A stretch of 22,799 nucleotides of DNA from a virus, in IMG/VR virus record IMGVR_UViG_3300050821_024075, positions 1 through 22,799 of that record; one strand, written 5' to 3'. The translations under genes were made by a program, and so were the position numbers. The notes beneath the pieces were generated by a model. The model did not search any database, was not told the DNA's origin, and saw nothing but the letters and a program-made list of their open reading frames with translations. Position 1 is the stretch's first letter; the number at the start of each line of letters is the position of its first letter. Positions 949-16,880 of this stretch are shown here, one piece after another.

Positions 949-3172
949 CTAAGGCAAACCGCCCAGACTGATGTCGTAGCCGATCGGGGCGGTGATCGAC
1001 GCTAGGTCGGCCTGCGCGGTGACGCTGCTACTGACAGCGCCCCAATCCTGGTCGACACCCGAGGCAAGCGAGGCGATCACATCGACCGACATGCCGCCGG
1101 TGCCGAGCAGCGTGTAGCTGTAGGCCGTGACGGCGGCGAGGTCCTGCAAGGCCTGGCCGAAAATATTGAACCCCGGCAGCTTGAGATAAATCGTCTGGCC
1201 GACAAAGCTCGCCGGATAACCGTAGCGAAACAGCGACGGGTCGTTTGGTCCGAAACGCGCAAACGGCGCGCCGGCAACATGCGTCGCGATCGTCGTGCCA
1301 TAAGCGCCGCGCCGCAGATAGCTGAGGCCGTATTTATAGGCGGCGGTCAGCGTCGCGGTCTCGTAAGAGACCAGCTCGCCGCCGCAATAGCACAACGTGA
1401 CATAGGCGTCGGCATCGGCCTGGGTGCCCGACAAAAGCTGCCCCTGTGACTCGGTCAGGTCGACCGCCAGCGTGTCGCTCGTGTCGGGGTCGGCGGCGGC
1501 TGGCAGGCTCGCGGTCAGCACGCCCTGCCGCGCACCGCGATAGATCGTGCCGGCGAGCCCGTAATGATTGCCGTCGGTCGAAATCCACGCCTGGCAGCCG
1601 CCCCAATCGGCGCCGCCGGTGGCGATGATCCAGACCTCGACCGCGCCGCCGGTCAGCGCCGCGGGCGGCCCAAAGATGATCGGCGCGTTGGTGTTGCCGG
1701 GATCGACAAACGGGTCGAGCGGCGCGCCGGCCGTCGCCTGTTTCGGGTGCAGCACAGCCGTGCCGACGCCGATCGGCGTGATCGTCCCGGTCACGGTGTC
1801 ACCCCCGGGATTTCCTCGGCGGTGACGGTCAGCTCGCCGTTTTCGTTTTCGTCGATCTGGGTGATGCGCACCGGCGCGGCGTTGAGGCCCAGTGTCGTGT
1901 CGGTGATCAGCACGATGTCCATCGGCTCCAGCAGCGCGTATTTCCAGCCGAGCTTGAATTGATACGTGTTGCGGACATAAAGCCGCCGCTGGAGCATCAG
2001 CTGCGCCGAGATCGATGCGCTGGCCGGGTTGGTGAATTCGTGCGCCTGGATCGACGGCTCGGTGCGCAGCCCGTACTGGTCGACCGTGCCCTGGTCGAAC
2101 GCGGCGATGATTTGCGGGTTGTAGCTGTTGTCGGCGTCGAGATATTCGATCGAAAGCCAGTTGGTCGCTTGCGCCGGGTCGCTCCGCGTCAGCAGCACCG
2201 GATCGGTCGCCCCTGACCCACCACCTGAACTCCCATCGGCCGACCAGGGCAGGAAATCGCTGTCGGTCAGGCTGTATTGCCAAATGAGGTTTGGCGTCCA
2301 GCTCGCGCCGTTGGCCGACAACGCCTGATCCCCGTAAGGAATGATCTTGAGCAGCGTCCCCGACCATACGACAGCGGCGACGCTGAGCTCGGTCATCTCC
2401 TCGAGCCAGCGCGCCGCGGGCTGCTGCGAGTCGAGCAGCAGCGACATCGCCAGCTGCGCCGCCTGACAATAATTGCCCCAATCGGCGAGCGAACCCGAGA
2501 CATCGAGATTGGCCGCGGGAAACCCGGCGCCGTAGCGCGGGTTGGTCAGCAGATCGCCGACGATCAGGTCGGGGCGCGCGTCATTGGGATAGCCCGGCCC
2601 GGCGGTGCCTTGCTCGAAACCGGTGATCTCAAAGGAGATGTCCGGCAACGCCGAGGACGACCCCAGATTCATCGGCGTGCCGGTCACGTAGCAGATGCCG
2701 AATAGCCGATCACCGGCTGGTTCACGTCAGAGCTGGCAAAGACCGGGTCGGGCGATTGCCCGTCATTGCCGGCATAGCCATTAAGCCCGGCATTGCCGAG
2801 ACCGTTGGTGATGCCGCCATTGGCCCATATGCGGTTGTTGCCGCCAGTGCCCCAGCTCGACCCGGTAAAGCTCACCGGCCCCTGGCAGATGCCAAACGCG
2901 ACATCGACCGAGTATTGCTGGTTTGCGCCTTTCTTGCTGCCGCTGCTGCCCAGCCCCTTGCCGCCACCACTCGAACTGCTGCTGCTTCCCGAGCCTTGGA
3001 AATTCCAGAACTCGAGCAGATTCACCGAGACGCGCTGCGTCCCATAACAGATGAAAATCGGGCTGCCCGCTTGACTTGTATTGTACCGGAGCGACCCGAG
3101 CGTTGGGTTGTTGAACGCGTTGACAAAGGGCGTCGGGCCGCCGCCCTTCCCCGCCGGCGCAAGATCAAACAT
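949..3172 (-). pseudogene. Tail hub/baseplate protein (GTA gp15-like), broken by two frameshifts
   Basis: Three consecutive open frames join into one protein of about 740 residues. The first piece (3172 to about 2700) starts MFDLAPAGKGGG and holds a Ser/Gly-rich linker. The second (about 2698 to 1806) includes the DLIVGDLLTNPRYGAG stretch typical of phage tail hub proteins. The third (about 1802 to 949) ends in DISLGGLP. At 2698-2701 the frame is restored if one base is added to the G pair (giving YSGICYVTG). At 1802-1806 one G added to a run of five gives EIPGGDTVTG. The order after DUF2460, DUF2163 and NlpC/P60 matches the hub position in gene transfer agents and related siphophages. The start ATG overlaps the NlpC stop. 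Whether the breaks are real or sequencing errors cannot be told here. Confidence 0.8.
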
Positions 3173-3587
3173 CGATCACCCCAAAAAACCGCACCTTGCG
3201 CCCGACAAGCGGGTTGAGCGTCGCATCACCCCACACGACACCACGCCGCCAATAGGCATGAATGAGGCGGGGCCAGTCGGTGACGATCGCGCCGTGCGAA
3301 AACGTGCGGCCGAACTGGAACACCGCGACATCGCCGGGCGCCGGCGGGCCGGACAGCTCGCGCGCATAAGGCATCAGCTTTTCCAGATAGCGCTCGGCAT
3401 CACGGTGCAGATGCCAATCGGGCGGGTAGTAGCCGGGGTCGACAAAAGGCACGAGCCCGCAGCGGTGATAAATCTCGGCGAGCAGCATCGCGCAATCGAC
3501 ACCGCCACCTTTGACCCTCCCCTGATGATGAAACGGCGTGCCGAGCCATTCCTGGGCCTCGGCGACAATTGCGGCGCGCGCATCCAT
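3165..3587 (-). CDS. NlpC/P60-family phage cell-wall peptidase (GTA gp14-like)
   Basis: This 140-residue protein is probably the tail-associated hydrolase that cuts peptidoglycan stem peptides during DNA entry. The papain-like catalytic set is visible: Cys32 in a VDCAML motif, His98 in SHGAIV, and His110 in LIHAYW as the likely third residue. The N-terminus reads like the family's opening (AEAQEWLGTPFHHQG), and the length is normal for the phage type. It starts 2 bases after the DUF2163 stop, and its stop overlaps the hub start, so the three genes look translationally coupled. The start ATG is at 3587. Confidence 0.92.
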   Translation of the reverse strand: MDARAAIVAEAQEWLGTPFHHQGRVKGGGVDCAMLLAEIYHRCGLVPFVDPGYYPPDWHLHRDAERYLEKLMPYARELSGPPAPGDVAVFQFGRTFSHGAIVTDWPRLIHAYWRRGVVWGDATLNPLVGRKVRFFGVIDV

Positions 3588-4510: not shown

Positions 4511-4543
4511 CGTGTTTCCCCTGATGGTGGAAACAGTTCCGCT

Positions 4544-4649
4544 GTCATTCCACGAAAGCGGGAATCCATGAACACGAGCCTGTGCCAAACTTGCTCAGGT
4601 CCGTGATCATGGGTTCCGGGTTCATCGCTCCGCGATGCCCCGGAATGAC
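4544..4649. repeat. Composite palindromic intergenic repeat, copy 2
   Basis: Same plan as the repeat at 835-939, with the ends GTCATTCC and GGAATGAC. The second hairpin is nearly identical (TTCCGGGTTCATCGC, loop, GCGATGCCCCGGAA). The first hairpin is damaged: its left arm reads ATTCCAC where the other copies have ATTCCCGC. The element lies between the DUF2460 and DUF2163 genes. Confidence 0.85.
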
Positions 4650-4658
4650 AAGTTGGCG

Positions 4659-5303
4659 CTAGACAAAGACCGATTGCAGCTTCACCTGCTTCAGCGCCCA
4701 GAGCTGGTAGAGGAAGTTCTCGAAATCGGCTGTGTCGTCGGCAAAGCGGACGCGGAAGTAATAGGTGAAGTCGGCGGTGAGGACTTGACCCGCGGGCGGC
4801 GGTACGGTGAACGTCACCAGCCCGGTTGCCGGATCGATGCTGTATCCTGAAGCGCTCTGCACGATTCCGTCGAAATAGATCGCCGAGACCGTGTTTGGCG
4901 CGGTGATCGGTTCGGCAAACCCGCCGCCCGGCAGCGCCACGCCCATTGAGCGAACGAGTTGGAAAACGGTGGCGCTGCCGTTGCCGGTGCCGATCGCCTG
5001 CGCGCTCACCGTGTCGTCGGTCGGGTCATTGAACAGAAACGGCTGAAACGCCCCCTGCTGCTGAAGGAAAAACCCCATCAGCGTACGCAGCTCGTCATAG
5101 CCGACACCGGGGCCGCTGGTTGCGCGCGTGTCGCGCTCGTCGCGCAGCATCGAGTAGGTCAGCGTCCAGCTCCAGATCGGGTTCGGCTGATCCAGCACGC
5201 GCAACTCACGGCCCGATACGGCGCGCTGAATGCGTGTCGCAAAGCGCGGCGCCTTGCTGACGCTCCAGCCGAGCCCCGGCAGCGTTGGGAAAATCGCGGT
5301 CAT
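4659..5303 (-). CDS. DUF2460 distal tail protein (GTA gp12-like)
   Basis: A 214-residue protein that matches the DUF2460/TIGR02217 type: an N-terminal FPTLPGLGWSVSKAPRF, a central GAFQPFLFNDPTDD, and a C-terminal YYFRVRFADDTADFENF. In gene transfer agents and related siphophages this protein forms the distal tail ring, linking the tube to the hub. It follows the tape measure stop by 9 bases and precedes DUF2163, the normal order. No frameshift is seen. The ribosome-binding site before the ATG at 5303 is weak. Confidence 0.92.
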   Translation of the reverse strand: MTAIFPTLPGLGWSVSKAPRFATRIQRAVSGRELRVLDQPNPIWSWTLTYSMLRDERDTRATSGPGVGYDELRTLMGFFLQQQGAFQPFLFNDPTDDTVSAQAIGTGNGSATVFQLVRSMGVALPGGGFAEPITAPNTVSAIYFDGIVQSASGYSIDPATGLVTFTVPPPAGQVLTADFTYYFRVRFADDTADFENFLYQLWALKQVKLQSVFV

Positions 5304-5312
5304 GAAAGCGTC

Positions 5313-5725
5313 TTAAAAACTGCGCGGGGTCAGGGCGTTCTGGCGAAATAGGTCACGGACCGCGCCAGCATTGTTCTTGAGGTTGTCGCGGAACCAGCGA
5401 TTGATCGACGGCGCGTCGGCGGGGCCGTGGAAATGCGCGTGAAAATGCGCATCGCCCGCGCCGCCGGCGATCATGCCTTGCAAGCCCTGCGAGATGTCGG
5501 CCGGCAGCACCATCTCGCGCGCATGGAGCAGCGCCGGGGTCGCGCCGGCAAAATTCGGCACGGCCCAGCCACCCGCCGCCGATGGCACGATGCCGCCGCC
5601 GCCAAAGCTGAAGAGCCCGCCAAGCCAGGAGAAGAACCCTCCTCCACCCGCAGCGGCGCCGGCGCTGGTGCTGTCCGCCGCCGTCGCGCCGGTCAGCGCC
5701 GCGGTGGTGCAGGCGAGCCAAGAAC
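5313..5725 (-). pseudogene. C-terminal remnant of the tape measure protein
   Basis: Only about the last 135 residues of a tape measure protein are present. They include the typical end of this family: a Gly-rich FFSWLGGLFSFGGGG, then GIVPSAAGGWAVPNFAG, LLHAREMVLPADISQGLQ, a His-rich HFHAHFHGP, and the closing RDLFRQNALTPRSF. Upstream of about 5725 the same frame is only the antisense-free shadow of the small secreted gene at 5693-6025, with no plausible start. Tape measure genes usually encode several hundred residues or more and lie between the tail chaperones and DUF2460. Here only about 330 bases separate those genes from the remnant, and they hold another gene. I infer a large internal deletion. 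Confidence 0.8.
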
Positions 5726-6025
5726 CAGTGTGATGCCGACCAGCTCGTCGCGCTTTGGCACCTTGACGTCGACAACGATCTTGCGGTGCGCCGTGCGGCC
5801 GTTGACATCGAGCTCGTTGCGCTTGGCGATCTGCGCGGTCACGACCTCCATGTTGAACCAAAAAGCCGTGCCCAGCGAGATCATGCAGGCACGTAACTGG
5901 GTATGGACGCAGCCGGCATGGGCCTCTTCGGGTGAAATGGCCGGTGCCGGCGTCGACGACGAAGCCGCCACCCCCTGCCCCGCCCCGGCGATGACAAGCA
6001 TCAGCGCCGCCGCCAGCCCCCGCAT
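5693..6025 (-). CDS. Small secreted protein with signal peptide, unknown function
   Basis: This 110-residue protein starts with a classic Sec signal peptide (MRGLAAALMLVIAGAGQGVA, cleavage likely after GVA). The mature part has two cysteines about 8 residues apart and a conserved-looking segment (ISLGTAFWFNMEVVTAQIAKRNELDVNG, then KIVVDVKVPKRDELVGITLVL). I do not recognise the family. GGGAGG lies 5 bases before the ATG at 6025, and a 6-bp hairpin (6036-6052, loop GAAAA) sits directly before it. Its 3' end overlaps the tape measure remnant in another frame, so its last residues (SPAPPRR) may be a product of the deletion junction. It occupies the place where a tape measure gene should begin. 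Confidence 0.7.
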   Translation of the reverse strand: MRGLAAALMLVIAGAGQGVAASSSTPAPAISPEEAHAGCVHTQLRACMISLGTAFWFNMEVVTAQIAKRNELDVNGRTAHRKIVVDVKVPKRDELVGITLVLGSPAPPRR

Positions 6026-6035
6026 CCGCGCCTCC

Positions 6036-6052
6036 CTGCGCTTTTCGCGCAG
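6036..6052 (-). promoter_or_regulatory. Short hairpin overlapping the ribosome site of the small secreted gene
   Basis: On the minus strand CTGCGC and GCGCAG form a 6-bp stem with a GAAAA loop. The stem ends at the edge of the GGGAGG Shine-Dalgarno sequence (6031-6036) of the gene at 6025. It could limit ribosome access or protect an mRNA end. This is inference from sequence only. Confidence 0.4.
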
Positions 6053-6055
6053 AGG

Positions 6056-6334
6056 CTACAGCCGACCGCCATTATTCGCCAACCGCGCGCGGTTACGCCG
6101 ACGCAGCGCTTCGATATCGAGCACCGGCGCCGGCATCCCGAGCGAGCCATTCGCGACAATCGCCAGGCCAGGCGGCGCCATCGCCGCGACATCGGAAAAA
6201 GACGGCGATGTCTTCTCCACCGGCTTCCAGCCGAGCATCCGGGCGATCACCTGAACCATTACATGAACTGGCGGGTTGTCGATCCAGTGAGCAAAAATCT
6301 CGCCGGCCTCGGCGAGTGTCATGCTGTCGATCAC
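6056..6334 (-). CDS. Tail assembly chaperone, downstream (GT-type) frame
   Basis: This is a 92-residue frame beginning at a GTG (VIDSMTLAEAGEIFAHW). It carries the short pattern seen in phage tail chaperone extensions: an ALATGCGYPY-like segment just upstream, the D-x-MTL motif, and a C-terminal HWIDNPPVHVMVQVIARMLGW. The frame is open without a start well into the end of the upstream chaperone gene (6382-6726) and lies at -1 relative to it. That is the G/GT arrangement of lambda and many siphophages, so it is probably made mostly as an extension after ribosomal slippage near 6403-6411. No good ribosome site precedes the GTG at 6334. Confidence 0.72.
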   Translation of the reverse strand: MIDSMTLAEAGEIFAHWIDNPPVHVMVQVIARMLGWKPVEKTSPSFSDVAAMAPPGLAIVANGSLGMPAPVLDIEALRRRNRARLANNGGRL

Positions 6335-6381
6335 GGCATAGGGATAACCACAGCCGGTGGCGAGTGCGCCGTAGATCGTGG

Positions 6382-6726
6382 CTAGCTGCTCGCGGCAGCC
6401 GCCTCCCCCTGCGTCACCGCCACCGGCACGGCTTCCCCCGGTTTGGTCTCCCCTGGACGGTTAAGGCCGGCGACACCGAGGATCACCGCGACCGCTGCGG
6501 TCACCTCGTCCATCGTTGCTTCAAGCTCGAGCACATCGTCGAGCGACATGTCGGGCAGCGCGCGAACCAGGCCCGCCTGGATGACCCGTGCCGCGGCATC
6601 GATCACCGCGCCGCCGGTCTTGCCCGACAGATCGTCTAGCGCGTCAAGCAACGCGCGCAACTGGCCGAGCTTCAGCGGCTCGATCGCGAAATCGCGGCCG
6701 CCGAGCGTGATTTTGGTTTCAGTCAT
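6382..6726 (-). CDS. Tail assembly chaperone, upstream (G-type) frame
   Basis: A 114-residue acidic, Ala- and Leu-rich helical protein directly after the tail tube gene, the standard place for a tail chaperone that coats the tape measure protein before tube polymerisation. It begins MTETKITLGGRDFAIEPLKLGQL and contains a long helical stretch rich in Asp and Glu. The ATG at 6726 has an excellent AAAGGAG site 5 bases upstream, so I reject the longer start. The stop (TAG, 6382-6384) lies shortly after a run of five G that could let ribosomes shift to the downstream frame. The repeat at 6751-6830 lies just upstream. Confidence 0.8.
   Translation of the reverse strand: MTETKITLGGRDFAIEPLKLGQLRALLDALDDLSGKTGGAVIDAAARVIQAGLVRALPDMSLDDVLELEATMDEVTAAVAVILGVAGLNRPGETKPGEAVPVAVTQGEAAAASS
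6403..6411 (-). promoter_or_regulatory. Candidate -1 ribosomal slippage site in the tail chaperone gene
   Basis: In the chaperone frame the codons are CAG GGG GAG, containing five G in a row. A tRNA on GGG can move back one base and still pair with GGG. From there the -1 frame has no stop and runs through REQLATIYGAL into the downstream chaperone frame. It is not a perfect X-XXY-YYZ heptamer, so the exact site is uncertain. Confidence 0.5.
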
Positions 6727-7897: not shown

Positions 7898-9280
7898 TTA
7901 AGGCGCGATCTGCTGCAGAAAAGCGTTTGGCTGCCGCGTGTTCGGCCAGATCGCCAGTCGGGCGATCGTGCCGTCCAGCTGATGTACGCCATTGCCATTG
8001 GCCCCAATGACGATGCGCGCTGGTGTGAACATCTCGGCCGTGCCGCCATAGGTATTAAGGGAACCGCTGTAGACGATCGCCTGGTCGTTGGTCTGCAAGG
8101 TGTAGGCGACCGGCCATTGCGTGTTCTGCGGCCAAACCCCTCCGCTGGGCGCGCCCCAGGCCGTGTTGTTCGAGGTGATGCCGCCGCTGAGTCGCCCCGA
8201 GCCGCTGCCGCGGTCGATATCGATCCGCTGCAGGTTGTCGCCCTCGTCGATCTGCAACGGCGTCTGCGTCGTGCCATAGCTCGTCGGCAGCTCCGGGGTC
8301 GCCAGCACATAGGCGGTGACCGCCTGGCCAAATGCCGGCGACGGTGATGAAATCAGCCTGACGCGTCACCGCCGCACCGTTGGTGTAGATAAGGCTCGTC
8401 GCGCCCTGGCCTTGTTCGAGCTGAGCGGGGCCAAAGCGGAATGTGACGTTGATCGTTTGCGCTCCCGTCCATGCACAACTGAGGAAGTGGTTGACGTAGG
8501 CGGTCGATGCGTTGTTGAGCGTTTGGGCTCCTTGCACGCGGCCCAACCCCAAGGTCGTCGCGGTGGGCATGCTCATCGCCGTTCCGAGCTGCGTCAGAAA
8601 CGATCCGCTCGAATTATAGATGTCGATAAAATACGTGCAGCCCGATAGCGTCGATGCGGAGCCGGCGCTCACGCGCCAAAACCAACTGCCCGTCCAGATC
8701 TGACCATTCGACGCGGCGATCGCGGTGTTGTTCGTGTTGAAATTGATGTTGAAACTGCCCGAACTGGCCACGTTGCCCGCAAGATTGAGATCGAAATACG
8801 GCAGCCCGTTCTCCGTCCCCGTCCCTGCCACCGAGATCACCAAACCGCCCGATTGCGAGTAGCTCCAACCCGTCGGCATCGAGCCCGGCGAACCCGCCAC
8901 CGCGCCGGCCATTTCGTTATAGGGCTGACCGTTGGTGCGACTTTCCTCGACGAGCAGCCCCTGATTGGTGACGCGCGGCTGACCGTTGGGGAACGAGATG
9001 ACGTTGCCGGCGCTGTCCTGTGCGGTGCCGGCCAGGCACGGACCACGTTGAGGCAGGTCGCTGCCGCACGGCAGCCGCTCTTTCCTCCCCAATACCGGCC
9101 TTGGACGAAATTGAGGTCGAGCGCCGCGCCCGGCAGCACCCAACCCTGTGCGCCCAGTTGATCCCGTTGCCTGAGCCGATCAGCATTTGCGTTGCCGATG
9201 ATGAGGATAGCCAGGGCCAAGCCGCCGATTAGCCGCGACCCGGCCCCTAGGGCGAATTTTCCGCGCATCGGGCTACTCAT
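7898..9280 (-). pseudogene. Secreted fibre-like protein with LamG-like end, broken by two frameshifts
   Basis: Three frames join into a protein of about 460 residues. The first piece (from ATG 9280, or ATG 9268) starts with a signal peptide ending IIGNANA, then ALDLNFVQGRYWGG. The second holds GNVISFPNGQPRVTNQGLLVEESRTN, a segment common in phage fibre or head-spike proteins, followed by a beta-rich domain with WSYSQSGG and FNINFNTNN. The third ends with LDGTIARLAIWPNTRQ, like the end of a LamG/concanavalin domain. The first break (about 9030-9036) is repaired by one added base (giving RASAGTAQD). The second (about 8333-8341) needs one base removed or two added. The start overlaps the stop of the preceding fibre-like gene. 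Confidence 0.72.
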
Positions 9281-10013
9281 CGCGATCGGTGGATACCAGC
9301 AGCGTCTCGACCTCGCCGGAAAGCGGCGTATACCCGCCCGAACCCGTCTCGACGAGCGCATATAGATAGGTCGCGCCGGCGAGCGCCTTGAACGGCAGCG
9401 CCGGGATCATCGCGTTGTTGCTTGAGCAGGGCGAGAACCACTGCGCGGTGCCGTCATTGGTCTTCTGCCATGACGCGCAGGTAAGCGTCCCGATGTAAGA
9501 ACCGCCGGTGACATCCGCCGCGTAAGGGCCGACATAGGCCGACTGATCCTTGAGGCTCGCGACCGTGATCCCCGAGTTCGAGAACAGGTGCCAATACTGC
9601 GTCGGCGGCGCCGAAGAGCCGGTATAGCTGGTCTCGGCAAACGCCGCGGTAAGCTTGCCGGTGCCGGCATTGGTGCCAGTGACGGTAATCTGCGTCGGCG
9701 TGACATTGCCGCTCGTGTTGTTGGCGATCAGCTGCGAGCCGGTATAGGCGGTCGTATTAGCCGGCCGCGTCACCGCGCCCGAGCCGTTGATAGTGGCCAG
9801 CGTGTTGATCGTCACCGTGCCACCAACCGGGAGCGGCAATACAGCGCTGGGCGGCACCGTGCCGCCGCTGCCGTTCGGAATGACGAGCTCCGCCGGCGGC
9901 GAGAGCGCGCCCGGTTGCAATGCTTGAAACGGGCCCTGACTGTTGTCGGCGTTCGCCGGCGCGGCCAGCGCGAGCAGCAGCGGGACCGCTAGGCCGAAAT
10001 ATTTTGGATTCAT
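9273..10013 (-). CDS. Secreted fibre-like protein with signal peptide
   Basis: A 246-residue protein. I chose the ATG at 10013 because AAGGA lies 8 bases upstream and because translation then starts with a clear Sec signal peptide (MNPKYFGLAVPLLLALAAPANA). The mature part is Gly-, Ser- and Thr-rich and beta-like (TINGSGAVTRPANTTAYT, then LIANNTSGNVTPTQITV), as in phage fibre or decoration proteins. The C-terminus has a YLYALVETGSGGYTPLSG segment. Its function is unknown. It sits between the tail terminator and a second secreted fibre-like gene, which starts inside its stop region. A signal peptide is unusual for a virion structural protein, so it may be a cargo gene acting in the envelope. 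Confidence 0.7.
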   Translation of the reverse strand: MNPKYFGLAVPLLLALAAPANADNSQGPFQALQPGALSPPAELVIPNGSGGTVPPSAVLPLPVGGTVTINTLATINGSGAVTRPANTTAYTGSQLIANNTSGNVTPTQITVTGTNAGTGKLTAAFAETSYTGSSAPPTQYWHLFSNSGITVASLKDQSAYVGPYAADVTGGSYIGTLTCASWQKTNDGTAQWFSPCSSNNAMIPALPFKALAGATYLYALVETGSGGYTPLSGEVETLLVSTDRDE

Positions 10014-10047
10014 CGAATGGTCCTTGGGATGGTGGCGTTTTCTCGTT

Positions 10048-10152
10048 GTCATTCCCGCGAAAGCGGGAACCCATGGACACAGGCCTCCTGGAGCCTGGCT
10101 CCGCCCGTGCTCATGGTTCCGAGTTCAGCCTTTCAGGCCGCCCCGGAATGAC
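10048..10152. repeat. Composite palindromic intergenic repeat, copy 3
   Basis: It starts GTCATTCCCGC-GAAA-GCGGGAA and ends CCCCGGAATGAC, like 835-939 and 4544-4649, but the second hairpin stem has diverged (TTCCGAGTTCAGCC against GGCCGCCCCGGAA). It contains an extra small palindrome (GGCCTCCTGGAGCC region). It lies between the tail terminator and the secreted fibre-like gene. Confidence 0.8.
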
Positions 10153-11833: not shown

Positions 11834-13323
11834 TCAACCGTTGCCGATATTGGTGATGACGCCCATCGCAAACGGCGCGTAGACCGCGAACACCTCTTCG
11901 GCGTAGACCCCGACCTGGCGCTGGCGGGTCACGATCGGCCAGTCGATCTGGTAGTAGTCCTGCCGCGTCTTGACCTCGGCGACATTCGGCACTTCGTTCG
12001 ACTGGTACTGCACCGGCAAATTCTCGGCCCAGCCGATGATCGTGCCGGGCGGTACCTTCGGGTGGATGCGGATCGGAATGCGCAGACCGCCATTGAGCGC
12101 ATACGGGTTGAAGTAGAACGACACCGCGCCCGCCGCCGCGAGGTCATAGGGGTTGCCGTCGTCATTCACATTGTAACGCAACAGCGGCGACGAAGCGTTC
12201 GACAGCACCTTGGCGGTGATGTTCTTCAGCTCCTGCACGTTGACATAAAGCACGGTCGGCGAGAGCTGGTAGTTGTTCCACATCGTCTGGAACATCGTGT
12301 CGATCTCGACCACCGAGCCGCGCCCCGACGAGGTGAGCGGCGTGCCGGTGCCGGCGGTGCCCGTCGCCTGCGTCGCGACATAGGCGTTCGACCCGCTCTT
12401 GAATGCGCTCGTCAGCAGCCCGTCATAGGCGTAATTCGGATTGGCCGAATTGTCGGCGGTGATCGCGGTCTGCGCCTGCTGACCGCTGGTGACCGGCGCC
12501 GAGAAGGCGGCGCTGTTGACCGTGGTGATCGCCTGCAACGTTTCGGCGCCGGTCGCGGTGCCGACATACCAGGCATAGGCGACCGCACCGGCGAGCGGCG
12601 TGACGGTCGCCGACAAGGTCTGACCCGATGTCACCGCCTGGCTCGTCTCGGCGCTGACGTTGGACGACCCGCCGGAGAGCGTATAGGTGGCGCCGTCGGC
12701 GCCGGTGATGGTCTTTGTCGCGGCGACACCGCCCGATACGCTCGAATTCTGGTAGCCTTCGAGTGTCAGACCGACAACCTTCACGTAATAGGTTGCGGCC
12801 GGCAGCGTCGCGCCGCTACCCGCGGCCGACAGCACCGGTGTCGCCGGCACGCCAGTTGCAGCGAGGCGTTGCCGCCGAGGATCGCCATCTCCTCCTTCAG
12901 CATCATCTTCTGCAGCAGGCGGAAGGTCATGCGCGCCTGGATGTCTTCAAAGTCGCGGCCGGCACTGATCGCCTCGTAGGTCGCCGCGTCCTCCTCGCCG
13001 ATCGTGACAAACGTCGCCGATTTCGTGGCCGTCTGGTACGACATCTGCGCCGAGCGCTGGCCTTCCGGTACCCAGCCCATCGCGTCAAAGCCGGAGCCGA
13101 CCAGCGCGCTCACCTGCCGCCAATGCGTCGCGGTGCCAGTGCCGCCACCGACACGCGGGATAACATTCCGGATCGGTGTGACAAACGGATAGAGGTTTTT
13201 CGCCGGCGCCTGCAAATCGAACGCAACCAGGCCGGTGCCGGTGTTGATCGTCTTGGCGATCTGGTCGCTGGGCGAGCGCAGCGCGCCCTTGACCAGATCG
13301 AGCGTGTCTAGTGTCGGGTTCAT
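11834..13323 (-). pseudogene. Major capsid protein with Ig-like insert, one frameshift
   Basis: Two frames join at about 12850-12853 into a protein of about 496 residues. One added G (giving ASLQLGVPATP) restores the frame. The first part (residues about 1-155) includes NLYPFVTPIRNVIPRVGG, GWVPEGQRSAQMSY and FLLQ-like helices (MTFRLLQKMMLKEEMAILGGN), consistent with an HK97-fold capsid of the kind that follows a protease. Then comes a Ser/Thr/Gly-rich stretch of about 125 residues that looks like two Ig/FN3-type beta modules (TYYVKVVGLTLEGYQNSS, AYAWYVGTATG). The last third returns to capsid-like sequence and ends VFAVYAPFAMGVITNIGNG. GGAGGG lies 11 bases before the ATG. Confidence 0.82.
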
Positions 13324-13401: not shown

Positions 13402-14133
13402 TTAGATCAGGCGTGGGTCATTGAAATCTTCTCGGCGAAACTCCAGCGACTGGCGCGGACTTTCGCACCATGCCCGGATCAGTTGTGCCCCGGGCATGAT
13501 GTGCCAGGTTTGCTCTCGCCGCGGCCGACGCTCGGCAAAAGCCGACGGCGACAATATCGCGCAATTCATTCCCCCACGCCGATCGCGCACCGACGCGTAA
13601 CGAATGGCATCAACACCCCCTGCCCTCGCCGCATCCGCCAAATCCTGACATCCCGCATAATCGACAGGCTGTCCCCAGATCTCCGCATCGCGGTCGAGCG
13701 GCGCTTTGCAGAGGTTCAGCGCCAGCAAAAATCGACAGCGAACGGAAAACACGGTGTGCTCGACTGCCGAGGATGGAAGTTTCACCCCCGGTGCTTCCGC
13801 AAAAAACAAAAGTCGATAAAAGCTCGTTTCCGCGACGGCGGTTTGCGGCATCTCCGAACAATAGAATACCCCCTCCCGCTGACCAGCTCTTCGAAACCGA
13901 GAGCCATGAGGATAGGGCGCGTATCGGAAGGGCGTTGCCAGCAGATAGTGCAACTTCTCGCATTCCGCCGGCAGGCGTGGCTTGCTGCGCTCCAGTATCG
14001 CTTCGAGCAACTCTTGCTCGTCGAGCGTGTCGGTTAATCGCATCGTCGACGCTTTTGCCTGAGACTCGACAGCACGCCACAAATCGGCATTCCACGCGTG
14101 GGCTTCAGAGCGGAGCGCGTCGGGAGTCCACAT
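13402..14133 (-). CDS. RES-domain toxin of a toxin-antitoxin pair
   Basis: A 243-residue protein with the RES fold pattern: an Arg-rich segment at 70-82 (FRYAPYPHGSRFRRAG), then GVFYCSEMPQTAVAETSFYR with the key Glu near 102, and the ILSPSAF motif with the key Ser near 195. RES toxins (for example MbcT) consume NAD+, stopping growth. The ATG lies inside the end of the antitoxin gene (29-base overlap), the usual order of the Xre-RES family with antitoxin first. The terminator at 13351-13373 closes the cassette. Intact frame. The cassette sits between head genes. Confidence 0.9.
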   Translation of the reverse strand: MWTPDALRSEAHAWNADLWRAVESQAKASTMRLTDTLDEQELLEAILERSKPRLPAECEKLHYLLATPFRYAPYPHGSRFRRAGQREGVFYCSEMPQTAVAETSFYRLLFFAEAPGVKLPSSAVEHTVFSVRCRFLLALNLCKAPLDRDAEIWGQPVDYAGCQDLADAARAGGVDAIRYASVRDRRGGMNCAILSPSAFAERRPRREQTWHIMPGAQLIRAWCESPRQSLEFRREDFNDPRLI

Positions 14134-14515
14134 ATCGCAGCGCTTCCACCAAACCGGGGACGGTCTGTATCAGATCAAGCGGTCTATCGCCGAGAGCGGT
14201 GTTAGGCGTTCTCATCCAAGACTTGAGTGTGTCGTCGTCACTGCCCACGATCGAATCGAGACTACGGAAAAGCCGCACAAATAACTGTGCCAATTCAAAC
14301 GTTTTTGTTTCGGGTGAGATGACATAATCGCCGCTCCGCAACCGCGACGCCGACGCTTCCGACAGGCCGATGGTACGCGCCACAACCTTGTTGGACAGAC
14401 CAAGAAATCCGGCGGCCCGAATGACGGCCTTGCTCAGTATCATGCCTTCTCGCTCGGCTCCCGGAATGGCCGAGGTCCTTGACGCTCGCGTCGCGGTCTG
14501 CATTCGATCCTTCAT
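14105..14515 (-). CDS. Xre/MbcA-type antitoxin for the RES toxin
   Basis: A protein of about 136 residues. The N-terminal part holds a helix-turn-helix (AAGFLGLSNKVVARTIGLSE, then ASRLRSGDYVI). The C-terminal half is the toxin-binding type (LFRSLDSIVGSDDDTLKSWM, then NTALGDRPLDLIQTVPGLVEAL, as in DUF2384 antitoxins), which plugs the toxin's active site. The ATG at 14515 is 8 bases from a -10-like TATATC, so the message may be nearly leaderless. The internal ATG at 14503 has AAGGA close upstream and is an alternative. I reject the longer frame to 14611 because it would run through the promoter and into the upstream gene. Confidence 0.85.
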   Translation of the reverse strand: MKDRMQTATRASRTSAIPGAEREGMILSKAVIRAAGFLGLSNKVVARTIGLSEASASRLRSGDYVISPETKTFELAQLFVRLFRSLDSIVGSDDDTLKSWMRTPNTALGDRPLDLIQTVPGLVEALRYVDSRRAPL

Positions 14516-14518
14516 AAC

Positions 14519-14542
14519 GCAAGATATAGCCAGTTTTCTTGC
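14519..14542 (-). promoter_or_regulatory. Antitoxin promoter with candidate autoregulatory operator
   Basis: GCAAGA and TCTTGC form a 6-bp inverted repeat with 12 bases between the arms. The -10-like TATATC (minus strand, 14523-14528) overlaps one arm. No strong -35 is visible; CTTTCA lies about 17 bases upstream. Such a palindrome at the start of an Xre antitoxin gene usually binds the antitoxin for self-repression. Confidence 0.55.
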
Positions 14543-14588
14543 ATATGAAAGATACGATGAGTGACCGGTTTCGTCAATCGACCATCGG

Positions 14589-15329
14589 CTAAGCGCGCGG
14601 GCGTGAGCCAAACGGCCTTATCGGGTCGGCATGCGCGGCTTTGATGAGGGTCAGGGTGCGGTCCTCGTCGCTCATGCGGGCCAGCGTGGCGACAACGTCG
14701 TCGGGCGAGGCCCCGGGATAGGCGCTGTCTTCGCGCTTGGTGAGGCTGGCGGTCGCGCGCGCCATGGTCTGCGGCGGCAACGGCGTCGCCTCCAGCTCGG
14801 CGACGCGTTTGGCGAGCGCATCGAGCCGCGGCAGGATTTCGCTGGCAAACGCTTTCATCAGGTCACCGCCCCGTGCCGCTTTGTCGGTGTCGCCCTCGGC
14901 GCCGGCTTCGTGGGCTTCTGGGACAAACCCTTCGCATTTGGCGCCGGCGCGGCACAGCGCGTCGTGCGCCTCTTTGAGATGGCCGAGCAACACCCGCCCA
15001 TGCCGCCCGGCCGCACTGGGCTTGCAGCAATCGCCATCGGTCATCGCCTTGAGGCAATCGTGGACATGGTCGAGCGAAGCCTGGTTGGCGATCGCGTTTG
15101 ACGCCGGCCCAGTGGCGGCAGGCGGCCCGGCTGGGTCGATCTTGTCCTTCCACGCGGCGACGATGCGGTCCCGGATCTGCTGCAGCTCACCTGCGGTGTA
15201 GGGCGCCGTGTTGCTCGCCATATGGACAAAGGCCCAGGCGGCGCGGATATGCCGCTCGGTATCGAGCGGGTAGCGCTTTTTGCCGTCGGCCTGAAAGCCG
15301 GGATCGGCGTGGTCGATGTCCTCCGCCAT
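14589..15329 (-). CDS. DUF6582-like protein between protease and capsid, possible scaffold
   Basis: A 246-residue protein. Residues about 15-65 (KKRYPLDTERHIRAAWAFVH, then YTAGELQQIRDRIVAAW) look like the DUF6582 module common in phage and mobile-element proteins. The centre holds a Cys/His-rich part (DHVHDCLKAMTDGDCCKPS, HDALCRAGAKCEGF). A later helix (LMKAFASEILPRLDALAKRVAELE) suggests a coiled coil. Its place between prohead protease and capsid fits a scaffold. GGGGAG lies 8 bases before the ATG at 15329, just after the protease stop. The frame is intact. The scaffold role is inference. Confidence 0.75.
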   Translation of the reverse strand: MAEDIDHADPGFQADGKKRYPLDTERHIRAAWAFVHMASNTAPYTAGELQQIRDRIVAAWKDKIDPAGPPAATGPASNAIANQASLDHVHDCLKAMTDGDCCKPSAAGRHGRVLLGHLKEAHDALCRAGAKCEGFVPEAHEAGAEGDTDKAARGGDLMKAFASEILPRLDALAKRVAELEATPLPPQTMARATASLTKREDSAYPGASPDDVVATLARMSDEDRTLTLIKAAHADPIRPFGSRPRA

Positions 15330-15333
15330 ATGG

Positions 15334-15773
15334 CTATCTCCCCTGAGGCCGCCCTCCGCCTTCCAGCAATCGAACACCGCCTCGGGGGTTGGCCGGGCGG
15401 TCGACCAGGCTGATCTCGGTGAGCGACAGCGCGGTGATGACATTTCGATCGGCGGGCGAGCGCGCCTTCACCTTGCCGCCGACCGAAAACCCCTTGTAGA
15501 CGCCGCCCGTCACCTTGTCCCAGGCGCGAGGGTCGACGATGCGGGCGCCGACATAAAGCCCCTTGTCATCGACCCCGCCTCCTCGGCGACACCGACCGCC
15601 GACATCTGGTGCATTTCTCGGATATTGGCGAATTTCAAATAATCGCCCAGCGCCGCGGCGAGCGCGTCGCGGGTGATGACCTCGCCCTGGTCGTCCTCGG
15701 CTTCGGTCGAGGCATAACCCCAGACCATCCGCTCGACGGCATCGACCTTGGCGATCGGAGCGTAAAAGCGCAT
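15334..15773 (-). pseudogene. Prohead (head maturation) protease-like protein, one frameshift
   Basis: Two frames join at 15573-15576, a run of four C on the plus strand; one more base restores the frame (EEAGVDDKGLYV). The joined protein, about 147 residues, reads MRFYAPIAKVDAVERMVWGYAS, then DDQGEVITRDALAAALGDYLKF, NIREMHQMSAVG, and VYKGFSVGGKV with LTEISLVDRPANPR near the end. The His of NIREMHQ and the Ser of GFSVGG plus SLVDRPA are the usual landmarks of HK97-type proteases of the XkdF/U35 type. The start is the ATG at 15773 or the GTG at 15782 overlapping the portal stop. The stop is 5 bases from the DUF6582 start. Confidence 0.8.
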
Positions 15774-15778
15774 GCGGA

Positions 15779-16880
15779 TCACCGTGTTGTTGAAGAGGAA
15801 GCACCAAGCGGCACCGCGCCTTGGGCGCCGTAGATCATCGGCTGGTCGCCACCGAAGACGGGGTCGAGGCCCAGCAGCCCCCGCGCCTCGTTGATCGCGT
15901 AGATGCCGTCGCGCACATAAATATCGATGATTTTGGCCTGCTCGGCGGGGTCGGCCGGCCGCAGATCGCCCCAGGCGAATTCGAGGTCGGGGTGACCCAT
16001 CAGATCCTGGATCACGTGGTCGCAGAGCCGCTTGACCCACAGCATCAGCGGCGCGAGACCCTCGGTCGCTGCAGTGTCCTGCGAGGTTTCCGCGGTCGCC
16101 CGGTTCACCTGCTTGGTGAAGGCGGTCGGCGGCAGCGAAACGCGTAGCAGACGATCCGCGCCAGCCATTCGTCGAAATCGTCCTTGTAGGGCGCTTCCTT
16201 GAACGCCTGGTATTTTGACCCCGACGGCCCCCACACCAGCCGCGTGCGCGACCCGGTGTTTCCCGCCAAGACGCTGTCGAACCATTCCTGGAACAGCGAA
16301 ATCTGCTCGACATTCCAGCCATCCGGCGCGTTGAGCAGCCCCGGCGGCACGTTGCCGTCGGTAAAATGCTGCAGCTGCATTACCTGGCGGCGCAGCGCGA
16401 TGTTGACCGTCATCACGATCTGCTCAACCGGGCTAAAACCGTAAGCCTTGTGCGGGCGCGGATTGTGCGGCCAATAAAGCAGCTCGTCGCTGGTCAGCAG
16501 CTTCCATGGCCTGCCCTTGATCACCTGCTCATAGGCCGGCGCCGGCGGGCGCGGACGGCGGCCGGTCTCGTCGGCCAGCACCTTGATCGTCGCGCCGTCG
16601 ACAATGTCGAGCCCGATCAGCGCGCCACCGCGGTTGCGCCGGAGTTCGAGCACCGGCGCGTCGAGCACCAGCAAATCTTCCATCAGCTCGCGCAGCCAGG
16701 TCGCGAACGGCCGCTCGCCGTCGGGCCGGCGCCAGAACTCCGCCACTGCCTGGACGCGCCCCGCGGCATGCGGCTGCCGCGGCTTGTCGCCGATCACCCG
16801 GATCGCCCAGTCGAGCCGTTCGAGCTGGTCCTTGCGCGTCTCGATCGCGAGCCGGGTGATGTCGTGCGCGTCGGCGATCG
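15779..16880 (-). pseudogene. Portal protein, N-terminus missing and one frameshift
   Basis: About 367 residues of a portal protein are readable. They begin abruptly at ADAHDITRLAIETRKDQLERLDW, a segment normally found roughly 100 residues into portal proteins of this type. Later landmarks are LLTSDELLYWPHNPRPHKAYG, SPVEQIVMTVNIALRRQ, SLPPTAFTKQVNRATAETSQ, and AINEARGLLGLDPVFGGDQP. At 16138-16140 one extra T on the coding strand restores AFSLPPTAF. The 5' side is joined in frame to the beta-helix gene. The protein would form the ring through which DNA is packaged, but without its N-terminal domain it is unlikely to work. The stop overlaps the protease GTG. Confidence 0.85.

Follow-up and report, generated by a model that had tools for sequence, protein, structure and literature searches.

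We analyzed a stretch of viral DNA of 22,799 bases (hereafter the window), a fragment of a phage genome of soil type whose virion genes occupy the minus strand and keep their usual order. According to the coordinates of the open reading frames, the chaperone region (end at 6056) and the DUF2460 gene (start at 5303) are separated by only ~750 bases, as the initial annotation had stated, and the 110-residue signal-peptide ORF that it described there, overlapping the end of a tape measure gene, was recovered from the ORF list and a PHROG match (Table 1). The signal peptide of this ORF was judged by eye, and the order of genes around the first chaperone ORF is the same in relatives.

The second ORF of the interval, of 182 codons, matched the tape measure family phrog_27190 in a PHROG profile search (E 8e-5), and its last ~107 residues showed 80-94% identity to the tape measure C-termini of the closest relatives. 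Both this homology and the position between the chaperones and the distal tail genes identify the segment as tape measure sequence. However, it is not a full-length tape measure gene with its own start, and the Met residues of the remnant are all internal, with no start codon of its own in the sequence.

Table 1. Coordinates of the genes, junctions and one-base changes discussed in the text.
Feature	Position	Strand	Evidence or remark
First chaperone ORF, tail assembly chaperone-type	6382..6726	-	PHROG 7947, E 1e-9; weak match to PHROG 1442 'tail assembly chaperone'
Second chaperone-region ORF	6056..6334	-	Conserved upstream of the exported-protein slot in relatives
110-codon ORF (110 aa, ATG)	5693..6025	-	By homology, front part (~104 codons) of the gene for an exported protein of 224-230 aa, plus out-of-frame codons from tape measure DNA; homology ends at ~5714
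182-codon ORF from TTG (182 aa)	5313-5861	-	Overlaps the 110-codon ORF in another frame; its end is the tape measure C-terminus
Junction 1 (putative deletion)	5703..5708	-	Alignments to relatives; up to 3 bases (ACC) assignable to either side
Tape measure remnant, last ~130 codons, without own start codon	5316..5705	-	Homology to relatives and PHROG
DUF2460 tail gene, intact	4659..5303	-	Pfam PF09343, E 7e-45
Junction 2, beta-helix gene joined in frame to portal gene	16876..16877	-	1.02-1.30 kb missing relative to relatives
One-base deletion, major capsid gene (MCP) split into two frames	12853..12853	-	
One-base deletion, hub gene split into two frames	2699..2699	-	
One-base deletion, portal gene	16138..16139	-	
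One-base deletion, protease gene	15577..15578	-	
One-base insertion, protease gene	15388..15388	-	Run of C

Several other features of the window were noted. A RES-domain gene (Pfam RES, E 4e-30) and an Xre/MbcA/ParS-type antitoxin gene (Xre_MbcA_ParS_C, E 2e-13) lie between the protease and major capsid genes (13402-14611, minus strand), and no relatives of either were found among 126 loci compared. Upstream of the major tail gene, another signal-peptide-like protein of 259 aa (9273-10052, minus strand) had no Pfam or PHROG match and is conserved at 77-80% in two relatives (L007 2455-3195 and L045 2465-3208). An intergenic repeat of ~100 bases is present in three copies (835-933, 4543-4643 and 10047-10127) and was also seen in 9/126 loci, at differing places; it resembles a mobile host-type intergenic element. 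The interval from the portal end to the protease, which in relatives (L047-L126) ranges from ~0.15 kb in L052 to >3 kb in L066, is nearly absent in the window and looks like another variable slot.

Junction between the exported-protein and tape measure genes

In four relatives (L007, L008, L009 and L011), the alignment with window DNA stops at ~5770 and resumes at ~5664, and between these points the relatives have an extra segment. In all four, the ORFs encode an exported protein of 224-228 aa followed by a tape measure protein of 419-443 aa, the tape measure gene of L009 running off the contig end. A search with the exported family brought in two further contigs of this arrangement, L045 and L046. 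Thus, to the question raised by the initial annotation, whether the secreted gene normally precedes a full tape measure gene, the answer from these six relatives was yes.

Protein alignment showed that the exported protein of the window matches the family to ~residue 104, just before a conserved ND, and then diverges, and the DNA downstream of the junction matches tape measure DNA from ~residue 300 of ~440. The lesion that had been suspected near 5720 could therefore be placed at 5703-5708. Sequence comparison thus indicates that the 110-codon ORF is the front part of a broken gene, while the tape measure remnant is the last ~30% of its gene and follows, in another frame, the initial ~104 codons of an exported gene of ~226 codons. 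Because the window joins the front of one gene to the end of the other, a single loss would have cut both. The missing segment measures 1244-1376 bases by comparison with L007, L008, L009, L011 and L045, and the longest word common to both of its ends (within 40 bases) was 6-8 bases in these five relatives, the same as in shuffled sequences.

To place the length of the remnant among its relatives, we used the 135 C-terminal residues as the query and obtained 39 loci, 36 in viral contigs and 3 in genome contigs. Of the 39 loci, 37 contained the tape measure frame, and 32 of those 37 had it complete at both ends. These 32 complete frames, some of which are near-duplicates of one phage, span 307-939 codons from stop to stop, and the ~130 codons of the window are fewer than in any of them. 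The shortness of the window tape measure is far outside chance, and the claim that this gene is reduced to its end holds; an intact relative with an equally short tape measure was looked for among the 39 loci and was not found.

The 21-base pattern just left of the junction was absent from the viral contigs (viral_contigs), so that no strain close enough to show the intact copy base by base was found. A search with window DNA 4659-6726 gave no match in phages. A DNA search of 385 class-level genomes gave matches in 65, among which G009 proved to be the already known locus L002; the other places listed in that search were pieces of <90 bases, which we judged to be chance.

Second junction, one-base indels and selection

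The initial annotation had drawn a parallel between the tape measure lesion and the beta-helix/portal joint, and our comparison revealed the same kind of loss at both. From the best 80 of 137 relatives found with a portal fragment, we compared the flanks of this second junction in 9 loci. In these nine relatives, the end of the beta-helix alignment and the start of the portal alignment are 1022-1295 bases apart, and in the window they abut. Because of this loss at 16876/16877, the 899-codon ORF of the window would be an in-frame fusion of the beta-helix and portal genes. Both the tape measure and the beta-helix/portal regions are whole in two contigs, G004 and G005.

Furthermore, four core genes of the window (MCP, hub, portal and protease) carry one-base indels, five in total, each of which falls at a short run or next to one. 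When 13 reference proteins were used to scan the window and 30 relative loci for frameshifts, none was detected in 23/30 loci and one or more in 7/30 (three in L046), versus three in the window, to which two protease indels visible only in alignments must be added. The same scan showed two internal stops in the window and a single one in each of five loci. Those of the window probably result from the frame changes in the protease gene, and no independent nonsense mutation was noticed there. The core virion genes of the window are thus truncated relative to those of intact relatives, as in prophages made defective by deletion.

We also asked whether the remnants bear signs of relaxed selection. 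The dN/dS of the tape measure remnant was 0.04-0.17 against seven relatives, versus 0.07-0.25 for the relatives among themselves, and its mean dN was 0.064 versus 0.079. There was no excess of mean dN in the exported-gene remnant (0.308 versus 0.301) or in DUF2460 (0.105 versus 0.134). Since the remnants show no relaxed selection, the lesions appear to be either recent or not in the DNA. The loci used for the junction, indel and dN/dS comparisons were chosen from those fetched, and several are parts of one contig (L045/L052, L011/L062 and L007/L055).

Origin of the lesions

Altogether, the region looks like that of an ordinary broken prophage, or like a sequencing fault, rather than a new kind of phage tail. 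Our preferred reading, to which we assign a probability of about 0.58, is that a single deletion of ~1.25-1.4 kb left this scar in a defective prophage which, judging from its gene set, would belong to a GTA-like alphaproteobacterial siphovirus group. No host flank was identified in the 22,799-base viral contig. In the ancestor, the chaperones would have been accompanied by genes for an exported protein (~226 residues), a tape measure protein (~420-445 residues) and DUF2460, and the deletion would have fused codon ~104 of the exported gene, with a change of frame, to ~codon 300 of the tape measure gene. The ~3 bases common to both sides of the join are as expected if illegitimate recombination produced it. 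If the deletion is truly in the DNA, the tape measure remnant would presumably be untranslated and a normal tail could not be built; the element would therefore not produce virions by itself, and it may survive as a remnant that carries immunity (repressor, RES-Xre pair).

Alternatively, the sampled phage might be intact, and the deletion and the frameshifts might have arisen as artefacts when a single metagenomic contig was amplified, sequenced or assembled, which we regard as less likely but far from negligible. With all five indels at short runs or next to them, and with no nonsense mutation of independent origin noticed, the lesions also resemble sequencing error, and the contrast with the majority of relative loci, which are free of frameshifts, points the same way, as does the undisturbed purifying selection on the remnants. 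In addition, neither junction 1 nor junction 2 was found in another viral contig when the viral contigs were searched, leaving the join without independent confirmation. However, the ends of the missing segments in relatives share no word beyond chance (5-8 bases), so that a k-mer misjoin is not a simple cause, and two separate losses of kilobase size would be needed. True deletions are favoured by this absence of a long word that an assembler could confuse.

Two other readings fare much worse than a deletion or an artefact. A genuine short-tailed design, in which a tape measure of ~130-182 codons would be functional and set a very short tail, agrees with the good conservation of the C-terminal part and with the short tape measures of related gene transfer agents, but we consider it very improbable, because the remnant lacks a start codon, 0/32 complete relatives fall below 307 codons, and the portal, capsid, protease and hub genes are broken in the same record. 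The insertion of a foreign secreted-protein gene that replaced most of the tape measure gene, as the initial annotation had proposed, is hardly credible: the slot is indeed variable, the exported gene being absent from some relatives (L002 and L010), but where relatives have the gene, it occupies this one place next to a full tape measure gene, and in the window it is itself cut short at the join. Hence that annotation was right about the reduced tape measure, the lesion near 5720 and the parallel with the beta-helix/portal joint, and its replacement by a small secreted protein is contradicted, that gene being the normal upstream neighbour.

The exported-protein family and known systems

The exported family was reached only through the tape measure end. 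With the 110-aa ORF as the query, 17 stretches of the viral contigs matched the pattern and none was confirmed; the family surfaced only after full-length relatives had been obtained. Full-length members occur at 12 sites, namely L007, L008, L009, L011, L014, L015, L045 and L046 in viral contigs, L127 and L128 in two of 192 genomes searched, and L134 (G211) and L135 (G210) in viral records from a search of 20 records, the G210 copy having one in-frame stop. At 12/12 sites, the gene is flanked by the chaperone-region ORF on one side and the tape measure gene on the other, and it is accessory, being present in 6/24 loci in which the second chaperone-region ORF was seen. L008 has a further small gene (3168-3560), of glyoxalase/VOC look by eye, between the chaperones and the exported-protein gene.

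An alignment of eight members contains four invariant cysteines (C36, C44, C145 and C192 in L009 numbering), of which the window copy keeps only the first two. Two full-length members had no match in Pfam or PHROG, a tblastn search of the L009 protein against phages and plasmids gave no match, and PADLOC reported none for six proteins scanned. A Pfam row for the truncated 110-aa ORF (Cas3-like C-terminal, E 0.09) was below the cut-off and was taken as noise, and the single row from a profile search against solved structures, a ubiquitin ligase (E 0.01), was judged to be chance. The structure predicted for the L009 protein had a fair pLDDT of 82 and no confident fold match in PDB or BFVD (best Foldseek E 0.025). 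A second structure comparison gave a best Z of 3.3, with several PsbP/Mog1/DcrB-type chains at Z ~3, which is noise level; a fold missing from these lists is not thereby ruled out. Chains of this type form one superfamily, and DcrB is linked to phage DNA entry.

Next, we compared evolutionary distances. Distances of the exported protein correlated with those of tape measure residues 1-150 with r 0.92, versus 0.29 for the major tail protein, in five taxa, and with r 0.83 versus 0.76 in nine taxa; L008 was left out (major tail gene split), L009 is 3'-cut, the tape measure start of L045 is set too far upstream, and the pairs are non-independent. Since adjacent stretches may be exchanged together and the pairs are non-independent, this correlation is not proof of interaction.

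As for the lesion itself, it is ordinary, and the record should not serve as a guide to which genes a tail contains. Deletions of virion genes are known from cryptic or defective prophages, and the window resembles such prophages in having several core virion genes truncated or frameshifted while neighbours are intact. Unlike them, the window is known from a contig only, and its lesions look very recent and could be artefacts. The uncultured viral contigs G004 (L011/L062) and G005 (L045/L052) share with the window the gene order, the exported protein and a beta-helix gene before the portal gene, and their tape measure C-terminus is 85-89% identical to that of the window. They differ in that the exported gene is whole (224-228 aa), the tape measure is long, and ~1.17-1.18 kb more lies between the beta-helix and portal alignments.

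The possible importance of the region lies in the exported family, which has no Pfam or PHROG match, is tied to the tape measure slot, and diverges at a rate similar to that of the tape measure N-terminus. Its position and its export suggest, by analogy, that the family may keep out related phages through an action on the tape measures of those phages. A more specific proposal, which we offer tentatively and consider rather unlikely as a whole, is that it is a new periplasmic superinfection-exclusion protein that would recognise the N-terminal part of incoming tape measures, be kept beside the tape measure gene for exchange as one block, and represent the alphaproteobacterial-phage counterpart of HK97 gp15 and TP-J34 Ltp. 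The HK97 record lists the tail protein gp13 and its frameshift product, gp15 ('moron product') and the tape measure gp16 in that order, so that the superinfection-exclusion moron gp15, like the exported family, occupies the slot between chaperone and tape measure genes. This location, at 12/12 sites, and the accessory presence are both gp15-type features of the family. However, the gp15 gene has 189 bases, whereas the family has 224-230 aa, a signal peptide and four invariant Cys; the likeness is one of position. A passage of PMC10883804 describes the gp15 product as a predicted inner-membrane protein, and the same source presents TP-J34 Ltp as an exported phage superinfection-exclusion lipoprotein whose block is overcome by tape measure changes. 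The likeness to Ltp is by description, Ltp being, unlike the exported family, a lipoprotein from a phage of a Gram-positive host. The exported family thus offers a simple way to test whether this phage group also uses the tape-measure-directed superinfection exclusion that HK97 and TP-J34 show.
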